Below, one piece after another: positions 32,331 through 63,566 of a stretch of DNA of 64,000 nt. This DNA is from Tomocerus qinae (Eukaryota > Arthropoda > Collembola > Entomobryomorpha > Tomoceridae). The stretch covers positions 43,834,001-43,898,000 of the forward strand of contig CM034546.1 of assembly GCA_020055645.1 (NCBI GenBank), in the 5' to 3' direction. Below the pieces are notes generated by a model. The model was given only the letters and a program-made list of their open reading frames with translations. It searched no databases and was not told the origin of the DNA. Made by a program: the position numbers and the translations under genes. Numbering within the stretch: position 1 is the stretch's first letter; each line of letters starts with the position of its first letter.

Positions 32331-33041
32331 TTAATTGAGCATTTTATACGATCAGCTTGCTATCTCGTATCCAGTGGGTATCCAGATAGTTTTAAAGCAT
32401 TGTTACTCAGGCCGACGAAATGTTATGAAATTTAAAATGCCGAATCCCCTGGTGGAAATACCTCTTGCCTAGTTTATTAATGAGAACTACCCACAGCAAC
32501 CTTACCAACTGTAAAAAATGAACTCAAATTCCATTTCTTTATGTAATTAAAATATATAGATTGATTCACTTAATTTTAAATACTGTAGTACAAACATATT
32601 TTTAGAAGGTACAGTTACAACGTATATATATACTCATCTAAAAATGGCCAATCCGCTCTGAATTCCATTGGAATTGGAACCTAACGGGTTAATGTTTTTA
32701 AATCTTTTACAAGTGGATTTAAAACCATTAACCCGCTGGATTTTTATAAAGAAACGGAATTTAAGTTCATATTATACAGTTTCAATATTTTGTTAGAATG
32801 GGGTACGGTATGAAAAGATTGCTATGGGTGGCTCTCATTATTAAACTTTCGTTCTCCGTTCTTTCTTAATAAATCTCCTATTGAGCTGATAATTTGAATC
32901 AGGCAAGAGGTATTTCCACCAGGGGATTCGGCTGTTTTAAATTTCATAACATTTCGTCGGCCTGAGTAACAATGCTCTAAAAATATCTGGATACCCCCTG
33001 GATACGAGATAGCAAGTTGATCGTATAAAAGGCTCAATTAA
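32331..33041. mobile_element. Transposon-like element with about 140-bp inverted ends
   Basis: Arms 32331-32470 and about 32903-33041 are 90% or more complementary by eye (ttaattgagc..., cgtatccag, cctggtggaaatacctcttg). The interior is AT-rich and non-coding. Family not recognised. Confidence 0.7.
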
Positions 33042-33154
33042 AATTAAATCGTAAATTATATCTTTTATTATGAATTATGTTGACTTGCTTTTAATCTAAA
33101 TGTTGCATGAATAGAATTACTATATATAGCTAATATAATATTATGATGATGTAT

Positions 33155-33874
33155 ATATCGTCCCTCAAGGATCGAAAAAGCCTTTATCCACTTTCATATT
33201 GGTGGACGAATAAGCCTAAATCCATTTTTTGTTTGGTGGACGAATAAGCCTAAATCCAGTTTTTGTTTGGTGGACGAATAAGCCTAAATCCATTTTTTGT
33301 TTGGTGGACGAATAAGCCTAAATCCATTTTTTGTTTGGTGGACGAATAAGCCTAAATCCATTTTTTTGTTTGGTGGACGAATAAGCCTATATATCCAATT
33401 TTCGTTTGGTGCAGGAATTAGCCTCTGTCATCTTACAGCCTTACGTAAAGTTGTCGGGGCACAGTAAGAATAAAAAAGTTGACGATATGAAGTATTTATT
33501 GTTTTTATGTTGATACTTGAAATATATCATGCTAGAATGTACATAAGCATTATAAAATTTTAGCTAATTACACAATAAGACAAAAACAAAACTTTTAATG
33601 ACACAAATTCGTATTTTGATATTGGATAACACTGAACTGGTTGAAGGAAGAATAAAAGTTCAATATTTCCGCCGCCCATATTAACTATGTATCAATACGC
33701 CCCTTTAACTTTACAAGCAAAGCTGCAAGAGGATAGAGGCTATTTCCTGCACTCACCAAACGAACATTGAATAATATAGGCTTATTCGTCCACCAAACAA
33801 AAAAAGGATTTAGGCTTATTCGTCCACCAATCTGAAAGTGGATACAGGCTTTTTCGATCCTTAAGGGACGATAT
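33155..33874. mobile_element. Foldback minisatellite element, copy 2
   Basis: 720 bp, ends ATATCGTCC / GGACGATAT. The left arm has about six tandem units of roughly 34 bp (ttgtttggtggacgaataag plus cctaaatccatttt); the right arm has two to three units in the opposite orientation. About 300 bp of unrelated DNA separates the arms. Confidence 0.8.
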
Positions 33875-34153: not shown

Positions 34154-35133
34154 GTGGTATATCCTTTCCATCGGGGCCCACTCTATGAAAATGGTGAAAA
34201 CCATTATAAACTGTGGTAGGGGATGTGAAAATGTGTTAGCATACGATTTTGAGCCAATATAAAAAATGGGGGGCGAGCTACCCCCCTTTGGGGCTATCTC
34301 AGCCCCCTGTGGTAGGAATTGTTTGAAACTTAAAAGAAACCTTTCTCACATTTGTTAAAACTTATCTGCAAAGTTTCATGAAAATATTCCCTTTACTTTT
34401 TGAAATATTTAACTTCAAAGACAATTTTTTGTCATTTTGGGGCCCTTTTTGGACGCATATAACTCGAAAGTTGGTATAGTTTTTGCAGACTTTTTAATTT
34501 TTAGCATGCACTCCACATGTCGGTGCATCACTCTGATAAGAAATCTCGGTGGGAACAAGCTGATTTCTTAAGATATAAGGCTCAACAGCTAAGAGAGTAT
34601 TGGGTATCTTTTTTCAGGCGAAACCGTTCTCCAGTGCATATGTACTTCGGTTCCGCTGTACAGTTTCGCCGGAAAAATGATACCCAATACTATCTCAACT
34701 TTGGAGCCTTATATCTCAAAAAATCGGCTTGTTCCCACCGAGATTTCTTATCAGAGTGATGCACCGACATGTGGAGTGCATGCTAAAAATTAAAAAGTCT
34801 GCAAAAACTATACCAACTTTCGAGTTATATGCGTCCAAAAAGGGTCCCAAAATGACAAAAAATTGTCTTTGAAGTTAAATATTTCAAAAAGTAAAGGGAA
34901 TATTTTCATGAAACTTTGCAGATAAGTTTTAACAAATGTGAGAAAGGTTTCTTTTAAGTTTCAAACAATTCCTACCACAGGGGGCTGAGATAGCCCCAAA
35001 GGGGGGTAGCTCGCCCCCCATTTTTTATATTGGCTCAAAATCGTATGCTAACACATTTTCACATCCCCTACCACAGTTTATAATGGTTTTCACCATTTTC
35101 ATAGAGTGGGCCCCGATCGAAAGGATATACCAC
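34154..35133. mobile_element. 980-bp near-perfect palindrome inside GTPase copy 1
   Basis: Two arms of about 475 bp (ends GTGGTATATCC / GGATATACCAC) are almost identical in inverted orientation around a loop of about 30 bp near 34640. ACTGT at 34148-34152 and 35134-35138 may be a short target duplication. No transposase. The right arm now supplies the last codons and stop of the 968-residue frame. The high arm identity points to a young insertion or to arm homogenisation. Confidence 0.85.
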
Positions 35134-37974: not shown

Positions 37975-39225
37975 GATTTTTGCAATATTAGCAAGCCGTT
38001 TAAAAGTGTCGCTGTCAGCTTAAAAACAACACTCAGCTTAAAACTTATCAAAGAGTATTGAATTTGCTGCAATCTGAATACCAAATCGGAGAACATCTCC
38101 TTTGGTAAGATACCTATCCTTGTTGGCTTTTCAAAAAACGCGAGTTTATCTACCATACCATCTCTTCCCAGGATATTTAAAATACTTGATTTACTTTTTC
38201 TCTGTTCGTTATAATAAGCAAATTTTTGAACAAACTCACACTTTACTTCTTCTCTGTCATCATCTGATTCAAATGAGTCCGTTTTTGTAATAAGAAGGAC
38301 CAAATTATCCTGAACCAATTCCGGAGGGCAAACGGATGTTAAAATGTCAATGAAACTAATGAACGAAACTCCTCGTGAAGAATTGATTGCAGAAATATCG
38401 ACAAATAAAACAATCTTGGCAATTTGGACAGACTCGCTGAATTTTTTCATTAGGTATGCATTTTGAATTCGTTGTATATCTCCTTGAGTGTCAAAAAAAC
38501 CAGGAAAATCCCAATATACGATATTCTCCTTTACATTATAATAAGGTGTAATTGTTACCGTTTGCGAATCGTCGCTATTACCAATAATTGCAATTTGATT
38601 ACCTGTATTGGCAACCCTAATTTTAAATGTTCGGCCATGACGACCAAGCTTCATACACTCCAACTCGTTGCCAATTAAATGATTTATAACTGTACTTTTA
38701 CCGGTTCCTGTTGGCCCTAAGCAAAGAACATGTTTAGTGTCCTCCCTAAATGTTTGATGCCTGTCGGTGCTATACTCTTTTGTGATCTTGTCCTCAAAAT
38801 TTTGAAATCGTGGAAGAAATTTGGAAATATTATCTTTCAGATCTGATGAAAGCTGTGAATCTTGATTTTGTTGTGGATCCTTTTCCCAGTTGTCAGACAA
38901 ATTTTCCAAAAAAGATTGCAATTCTTTATTCGGATCTGTTAATTCTGAAAATATATCAATAAATATTTGTTTTAGTAATGCTAGACAAATCCATCTTCTT
39001 TACCTAATGATGATATAATAAAACACATTTATCGTTTATCTTGTTGTCTTTCTAAGAACACATATAATATCACTCATATCAGTTAAAATATCCGTCCCTA
39101 AACGACAACAGAAATTATTAGAAAAGAATTTAAGAATGAAAAACATTCTTACTGATGTAATGCGTATATACCTTATCGAAAAATAGTTAATTGGTTCTTA
39201 ATAGAATTAAAAATGAATTACCCAT
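37971..39225 (-). CDS. GTPase copy 1, N-terminal GTPase domain (2 exons)
   Basis: P-loop GTPase domain of a large coiled-coil GTPase. Exon 1 (39225-39222) gives ATG G; exon 2 starts at 38944 after a clear acceptor, giving MELTDPNKEL at the N-terminus. Motifs: G1 GPTGTGKST (about residue 78), G3 DFPG within YWDFPGFFDTQG, G4 TKTD. Pattern and spacing recall septin, AIG1/GIMAP or MnmE-type G domains, but I cannot place it. The frame runs into TGA soon after the frameshift at about 38015-38040, so the product would be a free GTPase domain of about 325 residues. A TATA-like TTATATAA lies about 75 bp upstream of the ATG. Confidence 0.7.
38011..38050 (-). repeat. Frame-shifting tandem duplication in GTPase copy 1
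   Basis: ttttaagctgag is followed 19 nt later by ttttaagctgac. Copy 2 has only one such unit and is 13 nt shorter here, so copy 1 shifted frame by one base. Confidence 0.8.
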
Positions 39226-43661: not shown

Positions 43662-45437
43662 TCACTCACATTGGCCACAATTTTGTATGATTGTTTTTTT
43701 GCTCCTTGTATATTGTCCGTCGAAAAACATTACGAGCCTTTCAAGATCATCCAAAACATTCATACCCTTTACCACTTTACCAAAAACTACATTTGTCCCA
43801 TCCCAGCCAGGTTGTTCTTTTAACGTGATAATGAACACAGAGCCATTAGTATTCTCTCCACGATTGTGCATCGACAAAATTCCTCTTTCAGAGTGCTTCA
43901 GTAAAAAATTTTCTTTCTTAAATGTGTCTCCATAAATACTCTTTCCTCCTGTTCCATCATCTTTTGTGACATCTCCTCCTATCATATAATTCTGCCGATG
44001 AATAAAGTGGAAACAAGTTCCTTTGTAGCCAAATCCTTTTTCTCCAGTGCAGAGACACCGAAAATTCTCAGCTGTGAATGGAACGACATCGAATCTTAAT
44101 TGGATTACAAGTCTTCCAAGGAATTCATTATTGTACGCCAAGTCCATGAATACTTTTGTGTTTCTCGATCTTGAACTCTCTTCAAATAATCAAAAAAATA
44201 GTAATCATGACCAGAATAATAACACAAATCCAAAGATATATCAATTGTTTGTGAGTTTCTTACTTAGAATACTGAATGGGAGACTTGAAGACTGTTCGAC
44301 TGTTTTATGCTCTGCAGAAGTAGCTTTCACTTTTGGAATGGCTGTAGCTTCTAACTGTTGAAAAGCTTTTTCTGTCTTTTTTCCAATTTTAACGTTGATG
44401 GTCCATTCGAGTTTATTTTCCCCATTGTATTTTCCAAATTGTTTTAATTGGCTCAAGGGTAGGAAAACTTGGGAATTGGCAGAATCTTTACAGTTTGCTA
44501 TGTCAAAGACTGGACAGTTGAACCTAATCTTGACGTCCTGAAAATGTAAATTTAAAAACATTTCTTGTTATAACGACCGAATTTGGAAATTTAGGCTTTG
44601 CTTTGTCCTCTTACAAATATGACATTATCTCCATCGTTTAATCAGAACTGCGAAAAATGGATGTATTTAAGAGACGCTTTTTATCCAACTAAAAATATGC
44701 CCTTGCAGTTAATGAGCTATCATTGAAATAGATTTTATTTGGATGATATATGAAAGTGTGAAAGACATTACCTTTTCAATGTTGGTCACAGAAAGCTGAA
44801 GGCAAAACTGTTTGGCTGCTAATGCATTCCCGATCATTACACATCTCCAAGATACAATTAGACTTGAATCATGATAACAATCCTTCTTCGTGCCACTCAA
44901 AAGAAAAAACGTTTCATCATGAGCCTCAAAATAAACGGGTAACCAATTATGTGGGTTTGTGAAGTCCTCCAATTCTTGAATGATAATTGCCTTGTCACCA
45001 TTGACCCCATTTAACCCATGTTCAATCATGTGAGCCACAATATGATTTCTAGTAGGGATATTGTCTCCACAGCCCTGAAACTCTTTCAATCCGAGCAAAA
45101 TGCAAAAGTTGGCAGACCTACATAAATAAAAATAAGCTATTAAAAATACAAATAAATTGTTTAAAAAACGCTATGCAATTAAAAAACTAAGTATATGGTT
45201 GATATTTCAAAAATTTGCGTACCTCTTCTTGCTTTCTCCATACTTTGAAATTTCTAATTTTTCCATAGATTCGGCTAGTTGTAGCGATCCATTGCACAAA
45301 AAACATTTTGTAAATTGTAAGCAACCGGAATTCGAACAGAGAAAATGTCCTTTTGTTCTTGTGCACCGATAAATTGGTGGAGTAATAGATTTAAAACAAT
45401 TTAGACACTCTAAAGTATCCTTCCGAGATAATTCCAT
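43662..45437 (-). CDS. RING / SINA-like / cyclophilin fusion protein, copy 1 (4 exons, 450 aa)
   Basis: Predicted E3 ubiquitin ligase with a cyclophilin as its C-terminal domain. Exons: 45437-45223, 45117-44772, 44537-44264, 44179-43662; 1353 nt with consistent phases. Residues 11-48: complete C3HC4 RING (C11, C14, C25, H31, C34, C39, C45, C48). Residues about 75-275: SINA/SIAH substrate-domain-like region (VYFEAHDETFFLL, AAKQFCLQL, KLEWTINVKIGKK), with the SIAH zinc fingers reduced or missing. Residues about 285-450: cyclophilin (TGEKGFGYKGTCFHF, GTGGKSIYGDTF, FGKVVKGMN). Pocket residues differ from cyclophilin A: Arg55 to Phe, Phe60 to Asn, Gln63 to Ile, Phe113 to Ile, His126 to Asn. An acceptor just before the ATG implies a 5' UTR intron. 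GTPase copy 1 follows on the same strand. Confidence 0.85.
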
Positions 45438-46864
45438 TGTCTGTAAATTAAAATTTTAATTATTTTCTATGAGAAATTCCTTTGAAAATAAATAATATAT
45501 TTAACTGAAATAAAGTAGTATTCAATTTTCAGAGAAATTCAACTCGGTACCGGAATAACTTGATTACACAGGCTGTGTCTTGTATCAGTGAGGTTTAAAT
45601 AAAAACTTGTATGTAATTGTAATTTGATGAGTTTTCAATGACGTAGTTAATAGTTGTTCACAAGTGAAATGTTGTGTATTCGGTATACACAGAAAGTGAG
45701 AAACTTCTGAAATTCTTTACTTAAAAGTGATGAAGTGAGACTAGCAAGATGATGCTTGAGGGGTTGAATAATTCAATTTCTTTACTTATGCCCGCTTCCC
45801 CACAGGGCTTATTTCACATCACATAAAATTGTATCCTTATACATATATGTATCTGTTTTTGTACCTTTAGGGTGTATAAGCCAAAGGATAAATGTAATCC
45901 TAAGTCTTATACAAATTCAAATCACAAAAATAGACTTCACGAAAACGATTCCATGTTATGTGCTTTGATCAAGGTCCGCGAGGTCGGTTGAGTACCTAAA
46001 AAGGACCAAAGCTAAAGCTCCAAACCTATTAACGATAGCGTCCTTTTAATAGTATTTTTAAGTCGGCGCTACCAAATAAGAAAATGGGTATGTTTCTACT
46101 AACTCAATTCTCACAGTCTTCTTCATGTAACTATACACAACTAAGCATAATATTATGAAACGTTTAACAAATAGATAATTAGATATAGGTAGGTATAAAT
46201 AAGTAAATGCCAACCTGAATCTACCTTGCCTGACATATTTTTAACGTCGCATTAAAGAACTGTTTCATAGTCCTAATACTTAATACAGACATAAACTTAA
46301 TTTTTTACAAAACATCTAACGCACAAAAAAATATATTATATTCTCAAAAACTCTCTCATTATATAATAAATTATATTATGTGAAAGAGAAGATTGAATAC
46401 CAGAAACCAAACGTGATTTGTTAAACGCCATTGACATTTCATTCTAAAAAAGTAAATCTTTTGAATTTAACTTATGTCAGATTTTAAATAATAACTGAAG
46501 GATTTAATTCAAATATCAGAGACAAGATGGGACTTAAAATGTGTTTCGTCGTTCTTGTTCCTACATAAAAGTCACAAAATTGTTATTTGCGGTATACAAA
46601 CGAGCAAATGTGTATGTATTTCTCTAATCTAACTTTGGCTTTCAAAATTTTAATTTTGTTTCATGTCCATTAGTGTGTCGATGTAATTTCAAACCACAGA
46701 AACTTTAATCAGCTTTATATGAATTGAGCTTCAATAATACCAAGAAATGTTGTCATTCATTGCTAATTCTAATTTTGTAATGAAATGAACTTCTTCTAAA
46801 TGTGTCATTAATTAATAAACATTTTTACCGACATAATATAAGGTATAAGATGTAATATTACAAG
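45438..46864. other. Upstream region of fusion gene copy 1
   Basis: AT-rich; should contain the promoter and a non-coding first exon. tgtgtattcggtatacac at 45673-45690 differs at two positions from 54879-54896, upstream of GTPase copy 2. No gene seen. Confidence 0.4.
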
Positions 46865-47978
46865 TAGGGCATCCAGTCTCGGGTAGCTTTGGCCAGTCCC
46901 GGGAAATGAGACTTCTCGGGAATTTCCCGGGAAATTCCCGAGACTGAAGCATACCTACCTATAGCACTAAAAATTTCCAAATTTTTATTTAAAAAGGATG
47001 AATATTTAATTTTTTAATGCCGGCAGAAAAACTTGGATTAAAATACTTATACCAATATTAAAATATTATAATATAACTTGCCCTAACTGCAATGAATTTC
47101 AATTTATACCTTTGAATTTATTCAAAAAATAAAAAAAAGTATCACTTATCAAGCTGGTTCTGATGGCGTGTTGTATATTCTAATTGACATTTAAGAACCA
47201 TGACTAGGCGCATCCTAAATACGCTACAACCGACGGCGACTAACTTATACTATTTGCCGAGTGTTAGATGTTTATTAGTTGTGTTAGTTTCTTCGTGTGG
47301 ATAGGATAAGCCCCATGATTACTGGTTGAAATGCCAATAATGTAATGTTTATGCTCTTCTAGAACTAAATGTTAAGTAAATATTTAAATTAATAGCGATA
47401 GCGAAGACTGTGATCATTCCTTTTGCTTTTAAGAATTCTATTCCTGTAATCTTAGACTTGTTGATTTCAACTAAGATTTCATTGTCCGGGATGGCCTACG
47501 TGATAGTCTCTATTATTTCGATTTCAAAGACATGGGATATTTGGGAGTCTATTTTAAATTTTTACAGTGCTTTTAAGCCATTTTAGGTTGCTAAAAGTAA
47601 GATTGCCTGTAAGATTTGAAGTTGACTGGCTAGGTAAATCTATAATTTGATGGAACGGAACAGCTCTCTCGTTTAGTAAATAAACTTATATGGAGAAATG
47701 TGTTAACATGTAATTAAATATTTTAATAAATGTTTGAGAAATAATAAATTAAAATAATATTGGGAGTAGAAACAATAGTTACTAATAATATCTTTCACGC
47801 CCACATACAAATAATTTGCAACGTAAAAATTTTTAAAACCAATTTTTATAAAAAATATTGCTCCATAAAATGTTTAATTTTTCGAGAATTTCCCGAGACT
47901 GATACAGCCAGTCTCGGGAAATAAGTCTCGAGACTCCCGGGAATTCCCGGGACTGATTTCCCGGGACTGGATGCCCTA
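46865..47978. mobile_element. 1.1-kb hAT element, non-autonomous
   Basis: 1114 bp bounded by TAGGGCATCCAGTC and its complement, with a perfect 8-bp flanking duplication ATTACAAG (46857-46864, 47979-47986). Subterminal repeats of gtctcgggaa type at both ends. The interior is AT-rich with no transposase frame. Confidence 0.85.
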
Positions 47979-47986
47979 ATTACAAG

Positions 47987-48665
47987 TTTATAAAGTGCAG
48001 TATGCAAATGCTTCTGTAACAGGTTTAGAGTGAAAATTGTACTGGAATCACCACAAAAAGGAAATAATTTCGTGTAGGCAATAATTTAATCGTACAAAAC
48101 TGATTTATTTTTAATAAAATTCTATTTACAATCTAAAAAGGTAACAAGATTTTTTATGTAAATAATTATAATAAACTTTATTTATACAATATAGACAGAC
48201 TATTTAACATTCCCATAATATTAATTCTTGTAAGCTAATTATAACCTTTTAATAATGTCTTGTACATTGTGTACATAGTGTTTAACCAATAGCAATATTT
48301 TTCAAGTAATTGTAAATGTACAGTAAATAAAATCCCAAAAGTCATATTCAGCCTAAAATTAATTAATAAACCAACATTGGTTCCATAAATATTTCTGGAG
48401 TTGATATAATGAATTGTAAAATAGTGAAGGATAAAGACTATGTTTTGTATTCATAAAATATCATTTTTCTTGATAATGGCAGAATAAATGATTCCCTTAC
48501 ACATGAATTAATCGTACGTAGATCAATTTTAAATTAAGTCAGTTTTTAAATTTTAAAACTGAATAAATGCCCCCTATGATAACAACTGCTGCCCTGTAAA
48601 TTCTTGGACAATTATATGATTTCATACTTTGTGGTAGGAAGTAAATTTACAGAAGATGAAAAGAT
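47987..48665. other. Intergenic, 3' flank of GTPase copy 2
   Basis: AT-rich; should contain the 3' UTR of GTPase copy 2 on the minus strand. Nothing else recognised. Confidence 0.35.
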
Positions 48666-51600
48666 TTAGAAAAATGATAAAATCTCAACTGAAAAGATAT
48701 TTTTTAAATTTTCACCATAATTATCACATTGCTCTATTAGTTCTACGTCCTTATCCGCCATTTTCCCATTTGGAGCGTAGCCTGGATAAGTTTTATAAGG
48801 TCCATCAACCCAACAAGAATTCATCCATACCGAAAGTGGAGTAGCAACAAAGCCAAGTGTTGCGACTGCTCCTAGTCCTATAGTGTATCCAGCACTAACC
48901 CCTAAAGTCGTAGCCCTCGCTGCTGCTTTAGGAGCAGCTGCCAATATAAAGTCATCCAGGAATTTAAAGGGCGCTGCCAAAATTCCTTTGGCCGCTGTTT
49001 CCAAAAAGTTTGTAGGATTATCAATACCTCTGACCCCTGCAAAGCAATACTCGTTAAGATATTCTCCTTCCAAAGTGCATGCGTGTTGGCCCCCTTTACC
49101 CGGTGTATTGGAAACTGTGATAAAACTGTCCCAATTCCTATTTAAGTAGCAAAAGCCGCTATCATTTCCCGCAATACCCTCTGATCCACTTAGTTTGTAA
49201 CTCTCATGATATTGATCATTGAAAGTAAGGATTGATCTAAACACTTGTGCAATTTTTCCCCTCAAATCCCGATCGCCCCATGTTCGTTCTACTCTTTTTA
49301 CCAAATTAGTCTCCTTTAATAATAATTGTTTTACGATTTCACCTTCCTCCACCAGAGCCTGTTTAAGTTTTTTGTCCCTAAGATTTAATTCATCATAAGC
49401 CTTAATAACTTCGTGTACAAATACGTTTAAATTAGATTTTTGCTGGTTTTTCCAACATTCATAAACTTTATTTGCAGCATTAACCTTGATTTTGACATTT
49501 TCATAATTTTCTAAAGTAATGTCCATCCTGTTTTTATATTCCTGGGCATTTATTAATCTTTCTTGATAATTTTGTTTCAATGCAACCTGGCTAATGGCAT
49601 ATGCATCTAAAATGGCTTCTCTTCCTGTCAAAAAATATTTGGTATATTCCATAGGTATAACTTTTAGCAGATGACTCTTCAATTTTTTGCAAGAATTTTC
49701 GTATTGTTCTTTAACAATACTTTCATTTACATCTACTTCATATTTAGCCTGTCCGCTAATTCTGAGTGTTGACACCAATTCGTTCCATTTATTTACAGCA
49801 TCGATTAATTTCACGTTTATTTTATTCGTAATGTAATTTTTTACCCAACCAAGTCGTTCCGCCTCATTTTCCATTTTTTGAATCTGCTGTACGCAATTTT
49901 CATAGAATTCTTTTTTGTTTATGTCCCCATAAAATTCACGTTTTTCTGGTAAATAGCTTTTAGAGGCTGAATCACCGAGATAAATGTCTTTCACTCTTAA
50001 AATTGAGTAATATTCCGCAGTTATAGCATTTTTTTCTTGGGTAGCTTCAGATATTTTTTGGAATATTTTCTCAAGGCTGCTAAATTCTGATGGACGCATT
50101 TCCTTCAATTTTGCAATTTTATGTGATAAAACTCTCCTTTTAGTTGCCTTATCATCACTGCATCTTTTTACTTCTTCTTGCTTTTCTCGTAGCTTTTTAA
50201 TACCCTCCTTTGTATCTTGGATCAATTTATTGTAAAATGCCAACAATTTGTTTTCAGCCTTTATCTCACCATCAATACCTTTTTCAAACTTACTCTTTGT
50301 ACCCTCATTTTCTGATAAAATTCCATTCAAATCTCCTGCACTCAAATCAATCTCTACACCTTCAACCAAAATAGTATGCTTTTCAAAATATTTTTTCTCT
50401 ATTGCCTCTTTATGCTCTTTCCATTCTAAATACCATGTGCTGTGATTTTCAACAAAATTTGTCAAGCAAAACAAATTCGTGTCTAACTCGACCAAAATAT
50501 TTTGCAGTCCTTCCAAGTCATTATCATTGGACGCCAATAATTGAAAAAATTTATTTTCTGTTTTAAATACATCAGCACGTGCTTTTGCAATGCCTGATAC
50601 TAACCTTGCTTTGGTATTCTCATCACTTGCGGATAATGCAGAGTTCGATGAGGGTTTTTTAGGAATGTTTTTATATTTGTTGCAAATTTTGATTAGATCG
50701 TTTAATTTTCTAACCAAAATTAACTTTTTCTGTGAACTTTGAATTTTGTGTCGTAAACGTTTGGATCGCCATTCTAAAACGCTTTTTTCTCGCGCAATTT
50801 CTGAATCATCCCTGGCAATGGCATAATTTTCAAGCTCAGATTCCATCCTCATAATTTCTTTTAAATGATTCTGATCCTTGCGTTCTACTTGAGTAACTTG
50901 TTTTATCTCTTCCTCTAAATTTTTCCCTTTATACGATTTTAAATAATTCACTGCCTGTAAATACTTTTCCAATTTATCGATTTCATTCCTCTTGTCATTT
51001 ATCTGTGCGTTAACATGGGTCAAATCAAATTTTCCGTCCTCTCCTTCAACTCCGTCTAACTCTAATAAAATGCTACCACCCTTTACATTCTCAGCATAGC
51101 CATAAAAATTGCCGCTATTTAAAATACCCTTTTTTCTATTACCTTTTAGACTTATTTTCCTTTCGCCTTTAATATTCCAAATTTTACTGAAAATGATCAA
51201 TGTGACTCCAGGAAGATCTAGATCACTATCTACTACAAAAACGAGAGAATGACACTCCACAATCTTGACGTTTGTATCTTTCAAAATATTTTGTAAATAA
51301 GAAGTAGACAGTATTGCAGCCTTAATAATATTTTTAACACCATTACCTTTAGTGTCAGGGCGTTCACAAAGTTGGTTATACTTGTCATTAAATGTGGTCA
51401 AAGGATGTGCCCAATTAAAAATGTTAGCCTCAAAGTTAGGATTTAGTTGATTGAAGAAATTGAGCGTTTTCAAAATTTCTTTTAGTTTGGCCAAAGAATT
51501 TTCCATGGCAGATGAGCAGAAAGAACTTTGAAACCTTTCGATAAATATGTCTTTGTTATAGAATATAGAAAATGGTCCAATTTCTTTTAATTTGTCTTTT

Positions 51601-52639
51601 GTAAAACTTTCATCTGCTACGGCAGCTTTCACTTGAATGGCTTTAGCCTGTTCTGCATCTGCCATAATTTCTTTTGCAAATTTATTCAACATTGTTGCAA
51701 TATTAGCAAGTCGTTTAAAAGTGTCGCTATCAACACTCAACTTAAAACTTATTGCAGAATATCGAATGTTCTGCAACGTAGATACCAAATCGGAGAACAT
51801 TTCCTGAGGTAGGATTCCTGTCCTTTTTGGTTTTTCAAAGAACGCTAGTTTATCTACCATATTATCATTTCCTAGTATTCTCAAAATACCTGATCTGCTT
51901 CTTCCTTGGTCGCTATAATATGCAAATCTTTGCACAAACTCGTGTTTTTCCTCCTCTCTTTCATCATCTGACTCAAATGGGTCTACTTTAGTAATAAGCA
52001 GAGCCAAATTCTCCTGAAGGAATTCAGGAGGGCAAACAGCTGTTAACATGTCAATGAAACTAATGAAAGAAACTCCTCGAGAAGAACTGATAGCAGAAAT
52101 ATCTACAAATAAAATAATCTTTGCAATTGGAACCATCTCACTAAATCTTTTCATTAAGAATGCATTTCGAATTCGCTGCATATCTCCTTGAGTGTCAAAA
52201 AAACCAGGAAAATCCCAATACACGATATTCTCCCTTTCATTATAATAAGGTGTAATTGTCACCGTTTGGGAATCGTCGCTGTTACCAATAGCTGCAATTT
52301 CATTACCTGTACTATTCACCCTAATTTGAATCGTTTGACCATTACGACCAAGTCTGATACACTCCAACTCGTTGCCAATTAAATTATTAATAAATGTACT
52401 TTTAGCAGTCCCTGTAGCTCCAAAGCAGGCTACATGTTTACTGTCATCCCTATAGGTTCTATATCCTTCGGTGTTGTTGTCTCTGGAGTCCTTGTCCACG
52501 AATGCTTGAATTTCTCTCAGAAAATTGGAAATCTTTTCTTTACGGTTCAACGACAGCAGCAATTTTTGATTTTCTGGTGTCTCCTTTTCCCAGTCGTCAG
52601 ATAAATTTTGCAACAAACTTTGCAGTTCATTATTCAGAG
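48666..52639 (-). CDS. Large coiled-coil GTPase-like protein, copy 2 (over 1316 aa)
   Basis: Single large exon starting at an acceptor (TTTACAG, 52640-52646); the start codon lies in an upstream exon not located (the first codons read LNNELQSLLQNL). Counted from codon 1 of the 1316-codon frame: altered P-loop GATGTAKST (66-74), where the Gly before Lys is Ala; G3 DFPG (135-138); G4 TKVD (209-212); then helical linker; a domain with VECHSLVFVVDSDLDLPGV and ELDGVEGEDGKFDL; about 600 residues of Lys/Glu-rich coiled coil; GKGGQHACTLEGEYLNEYCF; a small Ala/Gly-rich, possibly membrane-active segment (about 1210-1260); and a polar tail. Large size and coiled coils recall dynamin-like or interferon-inducible GTPases, but I do not recognise the family. 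The P-loop change may weaken nucleotide binding. The fusion gene copy 2 lies upstream on the same strand. Confidence 0.8.
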
Positions 52640-53799
52640 CTGTAAATTCAGAAAATTTATTAATGTGTTGCTTGCTTAGGTTATATTTTGATTCTTTATA
52701 GTATATTCGTTTTTGTTTATATCAAAAATATTCTACAATACTTCAGAAATAGATGAGAGTAATTGGTGGCTACTGACAAAAAGTCAAAACAGAACACCAT
52801 GTCCACAATGTCCAGTTATTTTGTTCAGTTTGACAAAAGCGTAATATGAGTGACATCGACATCCATTAATTTATTAATACATTTTGGTCTAACGCAGCAG
52901 ATGGATAAAATATAATATCAAATACATTGTGCCACTCAAGACTTTTTTGAAACAAGTAAAATTTCACAAAAGTTCCTCACTACTAAGTTTGACGCGTTCA
53001 AAAGTCAATCAAAATTTTAAGATTATGAAATACAACCACCGAATTTTTCTCAGAAACAATTATTTAGAATTACATCTCTACGTCTATTTGAAAATCAAAC
53101 TCCTAAATTTTAGGTAACGATAGTAACGAATATCATAGCTCTATTAAATTGTTTCTGTCAAAACTCAAAACCCTGCAAACAACTGATTGATTTCAATGGT
53201 GGGTTTTTGTGAATAAGGGTTACTGAAATTCCAAATCAGTTGTAGTGACTTATTTGTTACATAAAACTTTAAGGATAATAACTTAAATAAACATAAAGCT
53301 ATTTTTGGGACTGTAGTCAAAACCTGAGCAAAAATTGGCCATAGGTGCTTATTTTATTTCCACATTTTACCTTCTGTATTCATTAATCGTCAACAACCAT
53401 TATGAGTTAAAGGAAAAATGCAGAAAAGGTAATTTCAGTTTAGTAGGTATCAATTTTATTTTAATGAAAAAGTGAAAAAAGTAAATAAATTGACCCTCGT
53501 GGAAATTTGGAAATAAATATTTACTTACTCATAATAACAGCTCGTGTTTAATTTTGTTTGAATTTCTTTTCATTCGAATCCGACGTCAGTCAATGGGTTG
53601 TACAGTAGTTTCACGACAATGATTTAAAAACAGGATCTAGAGATAATTATTCAAGAGTAGCACAGTGGCAGTTGATTTGGCCAGGTGAAGTTTGTGAATG
53701 GAACCCTAGAATTGAGAATAGAAAATCAAATATAAATTCGCCATAGTTAAATTAGTTTTAGTGTAAAAAATTAACAAATTGATTACAAATTTTTGCATA
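52640..53799. other. 5' intron region of GTPase copy 2
   Basis: Probably intronic between the non-coding first exon near 54291 and the coding exon at 52639, and should hold the exon with the start codon. AACGCGTCAAACTTA near 52986-53000 (minus) matches a sequence downstream of the copy 1 TATA box (AACGCGTCAAATTTA). Confidence 0.4.
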
Positions 53800-55130
53800 A
53801 TTACATTTTTTAATGATTTTTCATCCGAAATTCATTGATATAAACCAATATTAATTTGATCAGACACTTTTCTGGAGACATAAAATCATCCATAATTTGT
53901 AGAATGCTAGTAACTTCCTAATTTTAAAATTTCGAACATATTATGTTGAAATAATCGTATTATATCGATATTTATTTAAAACCAAGAGAACTTTTCTCAA
54001 CGTTTCATTTTATGAATTCTTTTTCATCAACTGCAATTCATTTTAACCAGAAAACGATAGGCAATAACGAAGTTTGACTAAATTATCTTAATCTTAAAAT
54101 ATCGTACAGCCTTTAATTCTTTTTGAAAAAACACAAGATATTGATTAACGTATTAGTGCAACGTAGTGATATTTACTCATTTAAAAAAATAAATATCAAT
54201 GGACAATTTAACGAATTAAGATAAATTGTTTCATTGTTTCACAGACAATAATTTAAAATACTCAAGTTTAATCAATAAAAAATTACTTACCAACAACCAG
54301 TCGCTCTTTATGATATTTAATGTAATAGACTGTTGTAGTTTTGTAATTAACAGTATAAATGCTTTATAAGCACAGATAACGCACGATATTGGGCATTGTC
54401 TTGAAAATCAGCAGAAAATTAACTGAAATACTTCATTTGGTGAACAGAGTATAAATGAGAACTTTCCGTAGTTTGTGACAACTTTTGTACCCTTATACAG
54501 GATTTAATACTCAAAAGTCACGAGGAGGTGAATGCTTGGGATTACATGAATGCTACTTATCCAAAGAGCCAAACTGATTGTCAGACAGAACTACTATATA
54601 CCCAAAATTGTAAGTTACAAAAATAGTTTTCTTGGTATGTTCAATAATCCACCTTTTGTAGTAGTAGAAAAGTATAAATCCTATTTCTATTTACTCGACA
54701 AACACGCCACTTGAATCCAAAGTCCAACTATCGCATGTTCATATCTATTTAGTCTTTACATTCAATTTACATTTTATTGAAAATAATTTACCCTAAAGCT
54801 ACAATCATTGTTATTATAACAATTTGTATATAATACAGGAACAATAAAGCCAATCAAATTGAACTTCAAAATCTTCTATGTGTATTCAGTATGCACTTGG
54901 AAACGGTTCTGTTTCAAAAATAAATGTAGAATAATAATTTTTCATAATTTTAGAAAATTATTTTATTTATTATTATGAATTCAACTAAAGATATAATCAT
55001 AAATACACATAGTGCAAAGATATCACCAAGTGTTTGTAGTACATTTCCATGGACAAAGTTCATAATATCTTACATACACGATTTATTATTTTGTATAGCT
55101 TTAATATCATATAACTGCCTAAAGTGTACA
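53800..55130 (-). promoter_or_regulatory. Duplicated upstream region of GTPase copy 2 with non-coding exon
   Basis: Blocks of this region match 58730-59820 upstream of fusion gene copy 2, for example gtaagttacaaaaatag, catgttcatat, ataatcataaatacacatag. In both, the minus strand has a donor at the same place (GTTG|GTAAGTAATTTTT at 54291; TCTG|GTAAGTAATTTTT at 59225), so each gene probably has a homologous non-coding first exon. This copy has about 230 bp more inside the exon region. Confidence 0.65.
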
Positions 55131-55731
55131 TATCTGTTTGTATTTGTACTTATTGACATTTTTTATTCTATTATATAACAATATTATTATATTTAACACA
55201 ATTCTTGAGTTCGAAGGAAAGCTGAATCTTGTGACTCAACAAGTACAAGCATGCTTGGGATTACAATCGCTACTTATTTATACAGTCACGTCAAGTGATT
55301 ATGTTATTTCTCGAGAAGAATGGGTAGATAATACATTTGGATGTCACAAAACAAATTTTATTATTAATTCAACTACAGATACATGACACACAAGGGGTAT
55401 CATATTATATTAGTGCTTAAGCTACGTTTGCCTATGAATCACACATTATGAAAATGTTTTGGCTTTGACAAGAAAGCTGATTACCCTTCATACAATAATA
55501 CTACGTACAATAAGCAGTGAGTGACACGGCTGTATTTAAGGGTAAGATAAGGACTCAACAATACAATGTCCTACTTTTCTATGCCCAGGAGACAGATTTA
55601 GAAATGTCAAATAACGTCTAAGCCCAACCTAACATAAATTTGTTCTACGAGAAACTCAAATCGTTCCGACCCTTTAAAGTCCGGGTTCCTAGTTACGGAC
55701 TGAAATTTAAATTACACATAAACTTTTTTTA
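55131..55731. other. Intergenic, nothing recognised
   Basis: AT-rich stretch with short spurious frames only. Confidence 0.3.
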
Positions 55732-55996
55732 GGAGAAATCCCTTAGGATCTGAGACCTTTGGTCCTACACCCATACATTAAATGTAAAAAAGATTAGTCG
55801 AAACCTATTCTATGCAGGACATATTGAAAATTTCACATTTTTGTCTTCTGCTTAAAGATATAACAATAATATCTTGAAGCATAAGACAAAAATGTGAAAT
55901 TTTCAATATCTCCTGCATAGGATAGGTTTCGACGAATCTTTTTTACATTTAATGTATGGGTGTAGGACCAATGGTCTCAGATCCTTAGGGATTCTC
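55732..55996. mobile_element. Palindromic MITE
   Basis: 265 bp, two arms of about 130 bp in near-perfect inverted orientation (ggagaaatcccttaggatct / complement), almost no loop. Non-coding; family unknown. Confidence 0.75.
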
Positions 55997-56098
55997 TTGA
56001 AAAGAGCATGAATTTCGCATAAAATCGGGATTGCATTTACCCTCTATGACAATTTTTGCTAGTTACCTAGCAACATCCCCACTTGTGGCTGAGACAGG

Positions 56099-56281
56099 TG
56101 TCGAGTTGATGTGTAAAAAGTAAAGCCCGGCTGAGGGACTCGAACCCCCGCCCTTCCCGGTTAACGCGACCGATGCTCTTCCAACTGAGCTAAGCACGAG
56201 CTTATTACCTTCTTACACAATCAACAAGCCTAGCCTATCCTCGAGACTTCCAAGTCTCACATTATACCAACACCGCGACAA
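56099..56281 (-). repeat. tRNA-derived repeat, unit 1
   Basis: The minus strand holds a tRNA-like body (about 56210-56125): D arm TAGCTCAGTTGGAAGAGC, anticodon-like stem TCGGT/ACCGG, T arm GGGGGTTCGAGTCCCTC. Position 33 is G, not U, the acceptor stem has two mismatches and the variable loop is long, so it is a SINE head or pseudo-tRNA rather than a working tRNA. An identical unit starts 268 bp away. Confidence 0.65.
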
Positions 56282-56366
56282 CTTCCCATTTTTATTCAGA
56301 GTGCTTCCACGCACTCACCCGCTCCTCCTATGAGAAAATACGGGGACCGAAAACCCATCTCCACCA

Positions 56367-56549
56367 TGTCGAGTTGATGTGTAAAAAGTAAAGCCCGGCT
56401 GAGGGACTCGAACCCCCGCCCTTCCCGGTTAACGCGACCGATGCTCTTCCAACTGAGCTAAGCACGAGCTTATTACCTTCTTACACAATCAACAAGCCTA
56501 GCCTATCCTCGAGACTTCCAAGTCTCACATTATACCAACACCGCGACAC
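56367..56549 (-). repeat. tRNA-derived repeat, unit 2
   Basis: Identical over about 182 bp to the unit at 56099, same orientation, 268 bp period; the 86 bp between them are not repeated again. GACAGGT-like sequence lies outside both ends of the pair. Confidence 0.65.
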
Positions 56550-56680
56550 AGGTAAATGGTTTCAAAAAATATACTCTGACCTTAATAATTGAAAATAACA
56601 GAGGTAATAGTACATGGTACCATAACATATAGCAAATTTAAATAATATGAAATAGTGGTGAAAAACTATTCTCCATATAT

Positions 56681-58612
56681 TTACGCCATTTTCAGAGGGA
56701 TAGGATCTCTTACACATTGACCACAACTTTGTATGGTTGTTTTTTTGTTTCGAGTATATTGTCCATCAAAAAAAATTTCGAGCTTTTCAAGTTCATCCAA
56801 GACTTCCATTCCATCTACTACTTTCCCAAACGCTACGTATTCACCATCCCAGCCAGGTTGTTCTTTTAACGTGATCATGAAAACAGAGCCATTAGCATTA
56901 ATATTCCCCTTGCCGTTGTACATTGATATAATTCCCTTTTCAGAGTGTTTAAGTGAAAAGTTTTCATTTTTGAATGTGTCCCCGTAAATACTTATTCCTC
57001 CTGTGCCATCTTCTTTTGTGATATCTCCTCCCATAATATAATTATTCACGTTAATCCGGAAAAAGCAAGATCCTTTGTAGCCAAATCCTTTTTCTCCAGT
57101 GCAGAGAGATCGAAAATTCTCAGACGTAAAAGGCAAGATGTCATTTCTTAATTCGATTACAAGCCTTCCGATCAATTCGTTGTCGTAAGCCAAGTCCATA
57201 AACACTTTTATATTCCCCGACTTTGAACTTCCTTAAAAACCAAATGCAAAACGATCAGATTGGAATAACACAACATTATGTATAATAAAATAGCTCAATA
57301 AAATGAAACAAAAGAACTTTTCTTACTAATAATATTCAATGGGTGGATTAAATGTTTTATTTTGAGTGGAAGGGAAGAAGTTTTCACTTTTTGCTTTGCT
57401 ATATACCATATAGGTTTAAACTTTTGAAATCCATCTGTATTTTCGGATTTCTTCCCTATCTGAACACTAATGGTCCATTCAAGCTTATTTCCCTCGTTGT
57501 ATTTTCCAAATTGCTCTAATTGTGCCAAAGGTAGAAAAACCTGTGAACCGACACAATCGTCTTGGCTTTCAATGCCAGTGATGGGACAATCAAACAGATT
57601 TTTGATTTCCTAAAAAATGAAAAGTTAAAATAACCATCATAAACTATAGGGCAAAAGTATTATTGCTTTATGGATTACGTAATTCTTACTGTTTTTAAAA
57701 ATGTCAGTGCATGAATTTACTTTAAAAAACTAAGTCTTAGTGCAGTGCAAAATTAATTTCAATTAGAATTGAAGCTACTTAGCCTAAAAGCTTCCACGAT
57801 TAAGTAGATGCTGTCTCATTGCCAAATTTTGTATATCATTCAAAATTGCAAGTATATACTAGTACTTCTTGTGATTATATGTCATGTTTAAAAAATGTCA
57901 TGTAGATATACAGTACCTTATCCTTATTTGTCAGGCAAAGTTGAAGACAAAATTCTTTTGCTGTCAATGAATCTCCCACTATTCCACATTTCCAAGACAC
58001 CAATAAACTGGAGCTATGGCTACAATCCATCTGAGTTTCACTCATTAGAAAAAATATTTCGTCATGAGCCTCGAAATATACAGGAAACCAAATCTGTGGG
58101 CTTGAGAAATCTCCCAATTCTTGTATGACATCTCCACTGGTACCCTTCACTCCATTTATCCCATGTTGTTTCATGTGGTCTCCAAATTCATCTCTGCGAA
58201 TGCTTTTTTTACAATCTAGGAACTCATTCAATCCTGGCAAATTGCAATAGCTTGTCAGTCTGTATAAATCAGGGAAATAATTATACATTATAATTATTAA
58301 AGGAATGTTAGGACAAAAAAACAAATTTGGTACCGAGAAATGTATAAATAAACTTTTATTAAATTTTGAGGAAATATTTATAAAACAAAATAAATTTTCC
58401 AAATACCTTTCTCTTGATTTTGAAATGCTTAGTTTTGTGATTGTTTCCGCCAATTGTTCCGCTACTAGAGATCGAATAGGCTTCCCTGGAAGTCGCTCCC
58501 TGCATACCCCACATGTTGTAATTTTCCTTAAACAATCCGAGCAGACAATGTGGCCATTTGCACACTGATAAATTGGGGGAACAGGAACTGTTAGACAAAT
58601 TGGACACTCCAT
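56681..58612 (-). CDS. RING / SINA-like / cyclophilin fusion protein, copy 2 (4 exons, 460 aa)
   Basis: Paralogue of the gene at 43662-45437 with the same exon structure: 58612-58407, 58259-57917, 57609-57327, 57231-56681; 1383 nt, consistent phases. Residues 3-37: complete C3HC4 RING (C3, C6, C17, H21, C24, C27, C34, C37). Residues about 70-275: SINA/SIAH-like region (FPVYFEAHDEIFFLM, AKEFCLQLCL, KLEWTISVQIGKK). Residues about 285-455: cyclophilin (GEKGFGYKGSCFFRI, GTGGISIYGDTF, FGKVVDGMEVLDELE) with a short extra insert in the NGS loop. Arg55 of cyclophilin A is kept here, but Phe60, Gln63, Phe113 and His126 equivalents are replaced. The codon matching the copy 1 start (58634-58636) is GTG, so translation probably begins at the ninth codon, ATG 58612. 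Predicted role: ubiquitin ligase that recognises targets by the cyclophilin domain. Confidence 0.85.
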
Positions 58613-59820: not shown

Positions 59821-60541
59821 ATGATGTACTAGTGAACCCAGCTAAGGGGTGAACCTAGTACTCAAGAAAAATTCAGCAGGCCACCAATCACAGTAATAAA
59901 AACAATTCCGAAAAAATCATCGGTATTTCCCATTGGTTATTATATTGAATTTGTAAATACAATAATTTAAATATACTTTTATTTTCTTCAGCGGTTGGAA
60001 AAATTAGCTGCAGTTCCAAATTCCTGATAAAAAGGAATTTACTAAACTACAACAATAACTGTAGATCGCAGCATCAATCAAATACAGGGGACAATGAAAG
60101 ACTCCATTTTTAATAACCAGCTCAAAAAGTTACCAAAAAGTTCCCATTTAAAATCAGAAAAATAAGATTCCCCCTGGGATTTAGGAAAAACGTATAAATC
60201 CCGTGAGTACAACTTACGGATGAATATTTTTAAAAGGTAAATAGTGGCCCCCGGTACTGTTATTTAATTGTGCAAAAAGGTGTGCAAGCTGGCACAAAGG
60301 AATCAAGGGGGTCCAGGGGTAATAAAAAGTAAAACCAACTCGATTTAAGTTTGTCGATTTAACAGAACCAATTTGGATTAGGAGCTTTGAAATGCTAATT
60401 AATGCGCACATTACGAAATGTTCCCTTTCGCCAATCATTTCATTCTAACAAAATCATATTATTATGTAAATTTCAATTTTTGTTTTGATGTTAAAATAAT
60501 ATAGGCTCCCAGTACCATTGCTGAATTTCAAAATGATTATG
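59821..60541. other. Intergenic, nothing recognised
   Basis: AT-rich, no supported gene or repeat. Confidence 0.3.
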
Positions 60542-60873
60542 CATATCGTCCTTTAAGGAACCAAATAGCCTATCTCCACTTTTCGTTTTGTGTACGAAAT
60601 AGCCTAAATCCATTTTTCGTTTTGTGGACGAAATAGCCTATCTCCATTTTTCGTTTTGTGGACGAAATAGCCTATCTCCATAGCCTAGACACTCTCTACA
60701 TAGCACCTATACATGGCGCAGCATTTAGGCTCCATGGCGTTTAGGCTATTTCGTCCACAAAACGAAAAATGGAGATAGGCTATTTCGTCCACAAAACGAA
60801 AAATGGAGATAGGCTATTTCGTCCACAAAACGAAAAGTGGTGATAGGCTATTTGGTTCCTTAAGGGACGATAT
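60542..60873. mobile_element. Foldback minisatellite element, copy 3
   Basis: 332 bp, ends ATATCGTCCTTTAAGGAACC / GGTTCCTTAAGGGACGATAT. Left arm three to four tandem units of about 35 bp (tttttcgttttgtggacg plus aaatagcctatctcca), right arm three units inverted, short unique centre. Confidence 0.85.
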
Positions 60874-60979
60874 CATTGTCTAATTTCGAAATAACCTAAT
60901 GTTGTTTACCCATATTGGACTTCCTTGTTTTATGAAACATGCATTGCATACGCGCATGTGCATTGCAACAAAATGCCGC

Positions 60980-61659: not shown

Positions 61660-63078
61660 TTATTTCAAAGCTTTTACAGTGGTTTTTCGACACCTAGTTT
61701 TACATAGATTAATAAAATATTCTGAAAAGAAAACAAAAACTGAGGCTGATAGAATAAATAGGTGAAGTAAAAATATCTGCACAATTTGAGAATATAGAGA
61801 AACAGGTTCGGCCTCATTTTTGTTGATTGGTGGACAAGTATGCTTGACTTGGCAAGTAAGGAAATAAAAGCTATAATATTCCACCCAAAAAGTGTAAATT
61901 CCATTTTGCCTCATTCTATTGCTTTCCCGGTAAAACAAATGTTTCATTTTGGAGGTATACAATATATATGAATTTCTAGAGTCAAAAGGTTCAATAACTT
62001 TATTACAGTTCCAATCTGGGTGTTTTGGCCTAACAAAGGAGTTGAGAAAGGAATCAACATTTAAATCTAGAACTGCAATGCCGTAATTATTTTTTGGGTC
62101 TTCTACTGCGTCGATAGAGACATTTTTTGGACTAGTGTAAATATCGATCTCTTTGGAAACAAGACTTGTATTATATTTGTCCTTCAATTTATGTTTCGTG
62201 AAAAGATGTAGAAGGTCAGTTCCTTGTATTATTTTGATTCCATTTCTTGTGTAGTGCGTTTCAAAGAATTTATAACCACTGTTAATAAAGTCTTTAAAGG
62301 TTTCAATGACTTTAGGTTTAGGTGGTACAATTATATCTCCAGTTACATAAGTTTCATAACATGTAAGAATAATGACAGACGCAAAAGACAAAAATAAATA
62401 TAATTTAACTCTGCTCGTGACTTCTTGACGCACAAGTATTGAGAAAGTGACAAAAATACCATCTATTATAGCATAAAATGCAAACTTTTTTGTCATAAAC
62501 ATAGAAACGACTCCAAAAGTAAATACCAATAATAGCCAGACGTGCATTTGGAACGGATTGAGCCATACTGAATTATTAAATCCTTGTAGCTTTATGTGCT
62601 TATCACAATACACAATTTCTCTATTTACTTGTACTAGGTAGAAAACCTCATAATATTTCTTTGACGTTTTTGCCATTTCTTGAAATGTTGTGTATTTGAC
62701 ATTTACATCTATACATACATGGCTTACAGGTTTCTTACTGTCTGGACTATCGATTACATAAAGTGAACCATTCAATCTGGTATTTATATCTATCATTAGT
62801 CGGATGATTGGTCTGCATAGGTTGTAACGCGTTTGACTTTGATTGTAATGCTTACACTTATTAACTGGTGATGTATTAACCATAACTGCAAATTTATTTA
62901 AGTTCGAGTTCAACTCCGTCCCGAAATTGCTCATTTGTTCACTAAGTAATCCGTATTCGCCCGGAACTTTTACGAATAATTGATTACAAAATGCACAATA
63001 TAACAATATCTTGAGGTTTGGGTCTTTGATGTCAGGTAAATGAATAAAATAGTACTGCGCATTTAAAGATTCACCCAT
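61660..63078 (-). CDS. Divergent ionotropic-receptor-like membrane protein (472 aa, 5' end uncertain)
   Basis: Resembles the ion channel and ligand-binding part of insect ionotropic receptors, chemosensory relatives of glutamate receptors in the plasma membrane. Seen, counting from ATG 63078: extracellular first half of the ligand-binding domain (1-175); TM1 MHVWLLLVFTFGVVSMFM (about 177-196); pore-like loop (about 201-217); TM2 VKLYLFLSFASVIILTCYET (about 224-243) followed by VPPKPKVIETFKDF, typical of the IR S2 start; S2 domain; TM3 IVQIFLLHLFILSASVFVFF (about 432-452). The glutamate-contact residues of iGluRs are not evident, as in most divergent IRs. No amino-terminal domain is seen. The frame is open beyond the ATG, and an upstream exon (63164-63355) is possible, so the true start may lie further right. 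No known partner nearby. Confidence 0.7.
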   Translation of the reverse strand: MGESLNAQYYFIHLPDIKDPNLKILLYCAFCNQLFVKVPGEYGLLSEQMSNFGTELNSNLNKFAVMVNTSPVNKCKHYNQSQTRYNLCRPIIRLMIDINTRLNGSLYVIDSPDSKKPVSHVCIDVNVKYTTFQEMAKTSKKYYEVFYLVQVNREIVYCDKHIKLQGFNNSVWLNPFQMHVWLLLVFTFGVVSMFMTKKFAFYAIIDGIFVTFSILVRQEVTSRVKLYLFLSFASVIILTCYETYVTGDIIVPPKPKVIETFKDFINSGYKFFETHYTRNGIKIIQGTDLLHLFTKHKLKDKYNTSLVSKEIDIYTSPKNVSIDAVEDPKNNYGIAVLDLNVDSFLNSFVRPKHPDWNCNKVIEPFDSRNSYILYTSKMKHLFYRESNRMRQNGIYTFWVEYYSFYFLTCQVKHTCPPINKNEAEPVSLYSQIVQIFLLHLFILSASVFVFFSEYFINLCKTRCRKTTVKALK

Positions 63079-63566
63079 GGCCACCACACAATTCTCTTTT
63101 CTTCCACAGACAATGAGAAATATTTCAATAATTTCAATAATGCTGCCTAGTCCTTGTATACAATCATAAATAACCTCTCGTTACCTTTGTTATATTTTTT
63201 AAAGCACGTACATTCCATTTCAACATGATTAGATGCACAGGAAATAGTATTTTCGCCCAGAAATGTCTGAAATGGAAATTTGTGTATTTAAATACAATAT
63301 TAAGAATTAATATGTGTCGAAACTTTAAAACTGTTCTAAAATATACCAGCACCATATTTTCGTTTGGTAAAGAAGTTAAAAATTGGGTAATTTAAACTAC
63401 TGGTATTTATGGTCTTCCTAGAAGCAAATCAGTTATTGTGTTTCAATGAATGTACAGGAAAAGACAATAAGTTAGAGTAAGACCTTCAATTAATACACAG
63501 TATTCTTTTAAGCCAATCCAAGGCTTTCACATTTCAATCAATGCAATTATTAAAACATGCCCTGAA
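63079..63566. other. Upstream of receptor-like gene, possible 5' exon
   Basis: Contains a minus-strand open stretch at 63164-63355 with a GTAACG donor-like site, which could be a first exon of the receptor-like gene. I could not find a phase-consistent acceptor, so it is not joined to the CDS. Confidence 0.3.

Follow-up and report, generated by a model that had tools for sequence, protein, structure and literature searches.

The 64,000-bp stretch of the genome of the collembolan Tomocerus qinae analyzed here (contig CM034546.1, positions 43,834,001–43,898,000 of the forward strand; hereafter the window) was found to contain two genes, gene 1 and gene 2, predicted to encode fusion proteins in which a SINA-type RING region is followed by a SINA-like middle region and a C-terminal cyclophilin. 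Both genes are located on the minus strand and consist of four exons each, with the same ends as in the original prediction, which had been made from the letters of the window alone:

58407–58612, minus strand: gene 2 exon 1, start codon and intact SINA-type C3HC4 RING (58502–58606)
57917–58259, minus strand: gene 2 exon 2, second SINA zinc finger plus the N-terminal half of the SINA-like substrate domain
57327–57609, minus strand: gene 2 exon 3, C-terminal half of the SINA-like domain plus the linker
56681–57231, minus strand: gene 2 exon 4, complete cyclophilin domain (56720–57199), then stop
45223–45437, minus strand: gene 1 exon 1, start codon (ATG at 45437) and RING-derived region
44772–45117, minus strand: gene 1 exon 2, second SINA zinc finger plus the N-terminal half of the SINA-like domain
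44264–44537, minus strand: gene 1 exon 3, C-terminal half of the SINA-like domain plus the linker
43662–44179, minus strand: gene 1 exon 4, complete cyclophilin domain (43674–44147), then stop

By splice-site enumeration, gene 2 was shown to have a single open combination among the sites tried, encoding 460 amino acids, and gene 1 to have 12 near-identical open combinations, the longest of which encodes 450 amino acids and was used as the model; in exon 3 of gene 1 an alternative donor at 44272 also preserves the frame. Every junction in both genes is GT-AG, the intron phases are 2, 0, and 1 without having been forced, and the two proteins are 60% identical. The predicted four-exon genes with a C-terminal cyclophilin in one continuous frame were thus recovered as intact open models in both cases. 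A Pfam domain search detected Pro_isomerase at about 1e-32 in both genes (1.4e-32 in gene 2 and 1.3e-32 in gene 1). Sina_RING was detected in gene 2 (6.5e-12) and in all five further fused members scanned, out of seven other intact models, but reached only 15.9 bits in gene 1 against a cut-off of 29.3. The RING-derived region of gene 1 retains all eight Cys/His residues, with two 2-residue insertions at the zinc knuckles (x5 instead of x3 between C3 and H4, x4 instead of x2 between C5 and C6) and a deletion after the RING, and lies outside the C3HC4 spacing, which all 13 other family exon-1 sequences tested conform to. Because the RING of gene 1 is abnormal, the complete C3HC4 RING originally described in each gene was confirmed for gene 2 only. 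Gene 1 is possibly a decoy with a dead RING, or else a copy in decay.

Further sequence analysis of the genome (115 contigs totalling 334 Mb; the window corresponds to C1:43834001–43898000) gave 42 cyclophilin exon matches, many of them at 41.5–44.2 Mb of contig C1 and one at 54.7 Mb, and at least 67 Sina_RING exon matches. Same-strand cyclophilin exons were present within 15 kb downstream of 11 of the 67 Sina_RING exons, the distance being no more than 2.6 kb for 10 of them and 11.8 kb for the remaining one. The cyclophilin fusions are one part of a large expansion of SINA-like sequences. When the stretches were fetched, 17 fused or formerly fused loci were found on one contig, 16 of them at 41.5–44.2 Mb and one at 54.7 Mb:

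All four exons (11 loci): genes 1 and 2, L009, L010, L011, L012, L014, L015, L016, L017, L018
Split locus: L037 plus L020, with exons 1–2 and exons 3–4 about 11 kb apart
Damaged, or partial in the stretch read (5 loci): L013, L019, L021, L035, L036 (cyclophilin of L036 partial within the stretch read)

Intact frames were obtained for seven of the nine further loci modelled, giving nine together with genes 1 and 2; splice-site enumeration yielded no intact model for L010 and L014. Since the same exon order recurs at further loci, and intact models could be built at seven of nine of these, the arrangement in the window is not due to chance. It is very unlikely that the SINA-like exons and the cyclophilin exon are separate neighbouring genes that were joined by the modelling. 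Such an artefact would be in line with the three of 11 loci (L015, L017, and L020; genes 1 and 2 were left out of this count) in which an in-frame ATG follows the last upstream stop ahead of the cyclophilin domain, and with an internal Met near the domain start in genes 1 and 2, L012, and L017. However, no such ATG is present in the other eight loci, and order, spacing, and junction phase are alike in all nine intact loci, although phase was free in genes 1 and 2 only, the seven further models having been built on GT-AG sites with phases 2, 0, and 1 required.

The cyclophilins of the fused loci formed one clade (ultrafast bootstrap 100) in which L009 branches first. The trees of the front half and of the cyclophilin differed, but neither rejected the other (approximately unbiased test, 0.235 and 0.065, the latter narrowly). 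This suggests a single fusion followed by duplication as the simplest account. The donor cyclophilin was not singled out among the candidates compared, as the mean identity to the fused copies was 51% for host cyclophilin L001 and 50% for human cyclophilin A (CypA), and the nodes were weak. The proposed fusion of a cyclophilin to a SINA-type ligase is supported, its front half being unlike that of primate TRIMCyp. The near-identical pairs L010/L011 and L018/L016 were observed in mirrored order and orientation (G000:C1:43.39–43.75 Mb), an arrangement that either a large inverted duplication or an artefact of assembly would produce, with differing spacings of about 81 and 63 kb.

The middle region of genes 1 and 2 taken alone gave no Pfam match, no SIAH match in a PDB phmmer search, and nothing significant by shuffled pairwise scores or hhalign. 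Direct profile comparison with SIAH1 was likewise not significant (best E 0.045 for unfused and 0.075–0.25 for fused sequences), and Sina_TRAF was best matched by L017 at 0.06, with none in the other six of the seven fused proteins scanned, which included genes 1 and 2. A profile of RING plus middle matched SIAH1 at 1e-14, but was rejected as evidence on the middle since the score was carried by the RING. The assignment therefore depends on five unfused relatives from this genome (L026, L028, L029, L031, and L032), each of which lacks a cyclophilin exon on its own strand in the 15 kb downstream. A RING, the patterns of both SINA zinc fingers, and this middle region are present in each of the five, and the fused middle matched the unfused middle at E 2.6e-24. 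Among the four unfused relatives scanned for Sina_ZnF, L026 was above the cut-off (8.2e-9, spanning both fingers) and three were below it. In the fused family the first finger is missing and only the second is present (C-x10-C-x11 or 12-H-x3-H in 9/9 intact models); in SIAH1 and L026 this finger, as read from the sequence letters, has the pattern C-x6-C-x11-H-x4-H. In an alignment with the host's own Sina, the SIAH pattern was followed as far as the C-terminus. There is thus good but indirect support that the middle is SINA-derived, consisting of a second zinc finger and a divergent SINA-like domain. The SINA/SIAH-like substrate region of the original prediction is supported indirectly, through the unfused relatives; the two window sequences themselves gave no direct match.

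A structural model of gene 2 exon 4 showed a cyclophilin fold (predicted local distance difference test score 79.9; template modeling score about 0.8 to CypA) that also matched TRIMCyp and NUP358 chains. Pockets were compared by aligning 13 open cyclophilin exons of the family to CypA, using a list of pocket residues that we take to include Arg55, Phe60, Gln63, Phe113, Trp121, and His126 in the catalytic set. Trp121 is borne out by PMC6315705, and positions 54, 58, 66, 69, 72, and 148 are involved according to PMC2924388. The scaffold was conserved in the 13 exons and most pocket residues were lost. Phe60, Met61, Gln63, Gln111, Trp121, and His126 were found in none of the copies, Arg55 and Leu122 in one each, Ala101 in two, and Phe113 in three, with Asn102 retained in 11 and Gly72 in all 13. 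Gene 2 is the copy that kept Arg55, the majority of its remaining pocket residues being replaced, and gene 1 has Phe at this catalytic position. In 12 of 13 copies the adjacent residue, 122, is Trp, and this shifted Trp could still line the pocket. Of the host cyclophilins, L001 retains the normal pocket residues and L024 lacks several.

In view of these losses (six residues in 13/13 copies and Arg55 in 12/13), a TRIMCyp-like choice of targets through an ordinary cyclophilin pocket is not supported. A strict counterpart of TRIMCyp, binding proline-containing viral capsid loops by an ordinary CypA pocket, is for the same reason scarcely credible here, even though the plan of an N-terminal RING and a C-terminal cyclophilin is shared, the model is close to TRIMCyp cyclophilin structures, and Trp122 could perhaps partly replace Trp121. 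On the aligned sequences, a changed, copy-specific pocket appears to fit better than an ordinary CypA pocket. Site entropy was compared over 155 sites; the 14 pocket sites stood at 1.68 and the others at 0.81, a difference reached in 0 of 20,000 permutations; with L010, L018, L013, and L014 dropped (nine sequences) the values were 1.54 and 0.79 (5/20,000 permutations). The reverse was found in 13 ordinary cyclophilins hand-picked from 78 proteins as controls, in which the pocket was at 0.73 and the rest at 1.23 (as low in 411/20,000). The catalytic pocket is thus the most variable part of an otherwise conserved cyclophilin. Of the sites that vary most, 58, 59, 85, 125, and 109 lie outside our assumed pocket list; residue 58 belongs to an active-site loop according to PMC2924388.

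Purifying selection acts on all parts of the fused genes, on both sides of the fusion junction, as shown by the ratio of nonsynonymous to synonymous rates (omega) in the RING (0.267), the SINA-like region (0.282), the linker (0.368), and the cyclophilin (0.278). Codon site models, run in a custom implementation with branch lengths from a Goldman–Yang tree that were only rescaled, gave modest support for diversifying selection in the 13 cyclophilin exons (M1a/M2a, p 0.024; M7/M8, p 9e-4; M8a/M8, p 0.021). In M2a, residue 55 was the only site with high posterior for omega above 1 (0.99), and M8 gave nine sites above 0.8 (55, 57, 59, 63, 85, 101, 120, 125, and 152). None of 92 simulations under the M1a null reached the observed statistic of 7.43 (maximum 7.11). 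Exon 4 of the nine intact genes gave p 0.017 for M1a/M2a, and in the full-length set of the nine genes M7/M8 gave p 5e-4, with pocket sites ranking high within the domain (13/20,000 permutations).

Several observations weigh against a pocket diversified by selection in a family of working ligases. In the full-length set M1a/M2a gave p 1.0 and M8a/M8 p 0.50, and M8a/M8 gave p 0.058 for exon 4 of the nine intact genes. Three close pairs showed no excess of replacements (nonsynonymous to synonymous changes 5:3 in the pocket and 48:30 elsewhere), and the high-posterior sites 85, 120, 125, and 152 are located outside the assumed pocket list. The structural model has low confidence at the loops of residues 74–77 and 109–112 and so does not give the pocket geometry, the RING of gene 1 is abnormal, and a relaxed pocket could look similar. 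In this main rival explanation, catalysis was lost and the pocket drifted, leaving the cyclophilin as a structural or dimer-stabilising tail. It agrees with the full-length site models and close-pair counts, neither of which showed omega above 1, and with the many high-posterior sites in the linker (10/28 above 0.5). We nevertheless regard relaxed constraint as doubtful, because pocket variability exceeds that of the rest of the same domain, the cyclophilin as a whole is still constrained, and neither the posterior at residue 55 nor the simulations favour it. As the exon-4 models give modest support, and the full-length tests and close pairs do not, diversifying selection on the cyclophilin pocket is likely from these sequences but not proven.

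Gene structure, copy number, the single fused clade, purifying selection, and the replacement and variability of the pocket are what the sequences of the family display, and we consider it rather probable that they represent a tandem family of E3 ubiquitin ligases with a non-catalytic cyclophilin pocket that has diverged from copy to copy, each copy marking a different protein. RING ligases pass ubiquitin from a ubiquitin-conjugating enzyme (E2) to a bound target. In the fused proteins, which are probably cytosolic, the RING would bring in the ubiquitin-loaded E2, and the SINA-derived part, with its second zinc finger and divergent substrate-binding domain, would hold a dimer or a partner. The C-terminal cyclophilin would have lost its prolyl isomerase chemistry and would now serve as a binding module, so that copies with different pockets would ubiquitinate different proteins. 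What is inferred in this proposal is that the proteins act as E3 ligases, that they have lost isomerase activity, that the pocket selects their targets, and that they have any role in immunity.

A more specific version is that the loci form a germline array of intracellular receptor-ligases, an arthropod counterpart to TRIM5 and NLR proteins, in which the cyclophilin pocket has become a hypervariable recognition site and each copy ubiquitinates a different foreign or fast-changing protein. We put this forward tentatively, and a viral link for the family is by analogy only. The same ligases could instead have a non-immune, fast-evolving task (germ-line or sex-biased), with pockets diversifying against partners of the organism itself; this differs from the tandem E3 family proposed above in what the targets are and is otherwise compatible with it. 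Reproductive gene families, too, commonly show tandem arrays, degraded copies, and rapid change, and nothing found points to infection. Nevertheless, a non-immune task seems unlikely, as this type of ligase has an antiviral precedent: an insect Sina was reported (PMC12121772) to target and degrade a viral phosphoprotein.

Other features were observed in and around the window. Between genes 1 and 2, outside the fusion, lies a large GTPase-like open reading frame (ORF):

48666–52721, minus strand: GTPase-like ORF of 1351 amino acids in one open frame

A second GTPase-like gene at 35068–38999 is split over two frames and is 67% identical to it in the GTPase part. These GTPase-like genes are duplicated beside the fusion genes at a spacing of 13.0–13.7 kb, and their ORFs matched Pfam MMR_HSR1 weakly; elsewhere on the contig there are relatives whose open frames reach about 2,200 amino acids. 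An obligate partnership with the fusion genes was rejected since most of the 28 matches lie elsewhere on this contig. A 182-bp repeat occurs in two identical copies at 56099–56548, both containing a tRNA-Thr (CGT) gene on the minus strand. Long near-perfect inverted repeats at 34154–35133 (474 nt, 97%) and 55737–55993 (125 nt, 94%) are possibly foldback elements, and related arrays of a 34-bp tandem repeat, which also occurs in inverted form, flank the region at 30798–33395 and 60509–60878. By eye, a 506-amino-acid ORF at 61660–63180 is ionotropic receptor-like (Pfam match insignificant), and the ORFs at 3815–4210, 6714–7112, 14131–14547, and 15313–15717 resemble pieces of repeated aldehyde oxidase/xanthine dehydrogenase genes.

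No protein with the order RING–SINA–cyclophilin was found among 5.8 billion sequences, by searches that depend on exact words in common and could overlook divergent relatives, and no description of this order was found in the titles and abstract openings of the open-access literature. Both results agree with the original remark that the order is not known as a described family. Five proteins with Sina_RING came out of a profile search, of which three carry SIAH- or sina-like names and are from Centruroides scorpions, and no relative was found in a scan of viral contigs. A candidate full-length relative, P0001 (371 bits), was rejected as a triple cyclophilin with a summed score.

Among known systems, the fused genes resemble the primate TRIMCyp (TRIM5–cyclophilin A) in having an N-terminal RING ligase and a C-terminal cyclophilin, but differ from it in the SINA-type front half, in the replacement of most CypA pocket residues, and in the presence of many copies instead of one gene. 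Of the RING–B-box–coiled-coil layout of TRIM proteins, the B-box was looked for and was not among the Pfam matches of the seven fused proteins scanned. The Sina_RING and the second zinc finger are shared with SINA/SIAH ligases, to which the SINA-like domain is linked via the unfused relatives; the fused proteins differ in lacking the first zinc finger, in a substrate domain so divergent that it is not detected against SIAH1 or Pfam Sina_TRAF, and in the added cyclophilin. PPIL2, a U-box E3 with a cyclophilin and one conserved gene, likewise joins an E3 domain and a cyclophilin within one protein, but has no SINA part and has a U-box instead of a RING; Pfam gave a RING and not a U-box in six of the seven fused proteins scanned, and neither above cut-off in gene 1. 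A separate host locus (G000:C5:5.16 Mb) is PPIL2-like by eye and was left out of the tree. RanBP2/NUP358, which belongs to the SUMO pathway and the nuclear pore, also ends in a cyclophilin within a larger protein tied to protein modification and was the top PDB sequence match, but it has no SINA part and falls outside the fused clade (deeper nodes weak). Pocket changes are known to matter in two of these systems: according to PMC2924388, changes in and around the cyclophilin active site, at positions 66, 69, and 143, alter the virus specificity of macaque TRIMCyp, and according to PMC6315705, a Trp-to-Tyr change at 121 in PPIL2 goes with loss of isomerase activity and cyclosporin affinity, proline binding being still possible.

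Compared to the E3–cyclophilin fusions TRIMCyp and PPIL2, which to our knowledge are single genes, the present case differs in that an E3 and a cyclophilin have been joined on a SINA ligase and multiplied, with the catalytic pocket altered from copy to copy. Invertebrates lack antibodies. If the pocket reads targets, a conserved enzyme site would have been turned into a variable receptor, and the family would be a candidate for a diversified intracellular recognition system of invertebrates.

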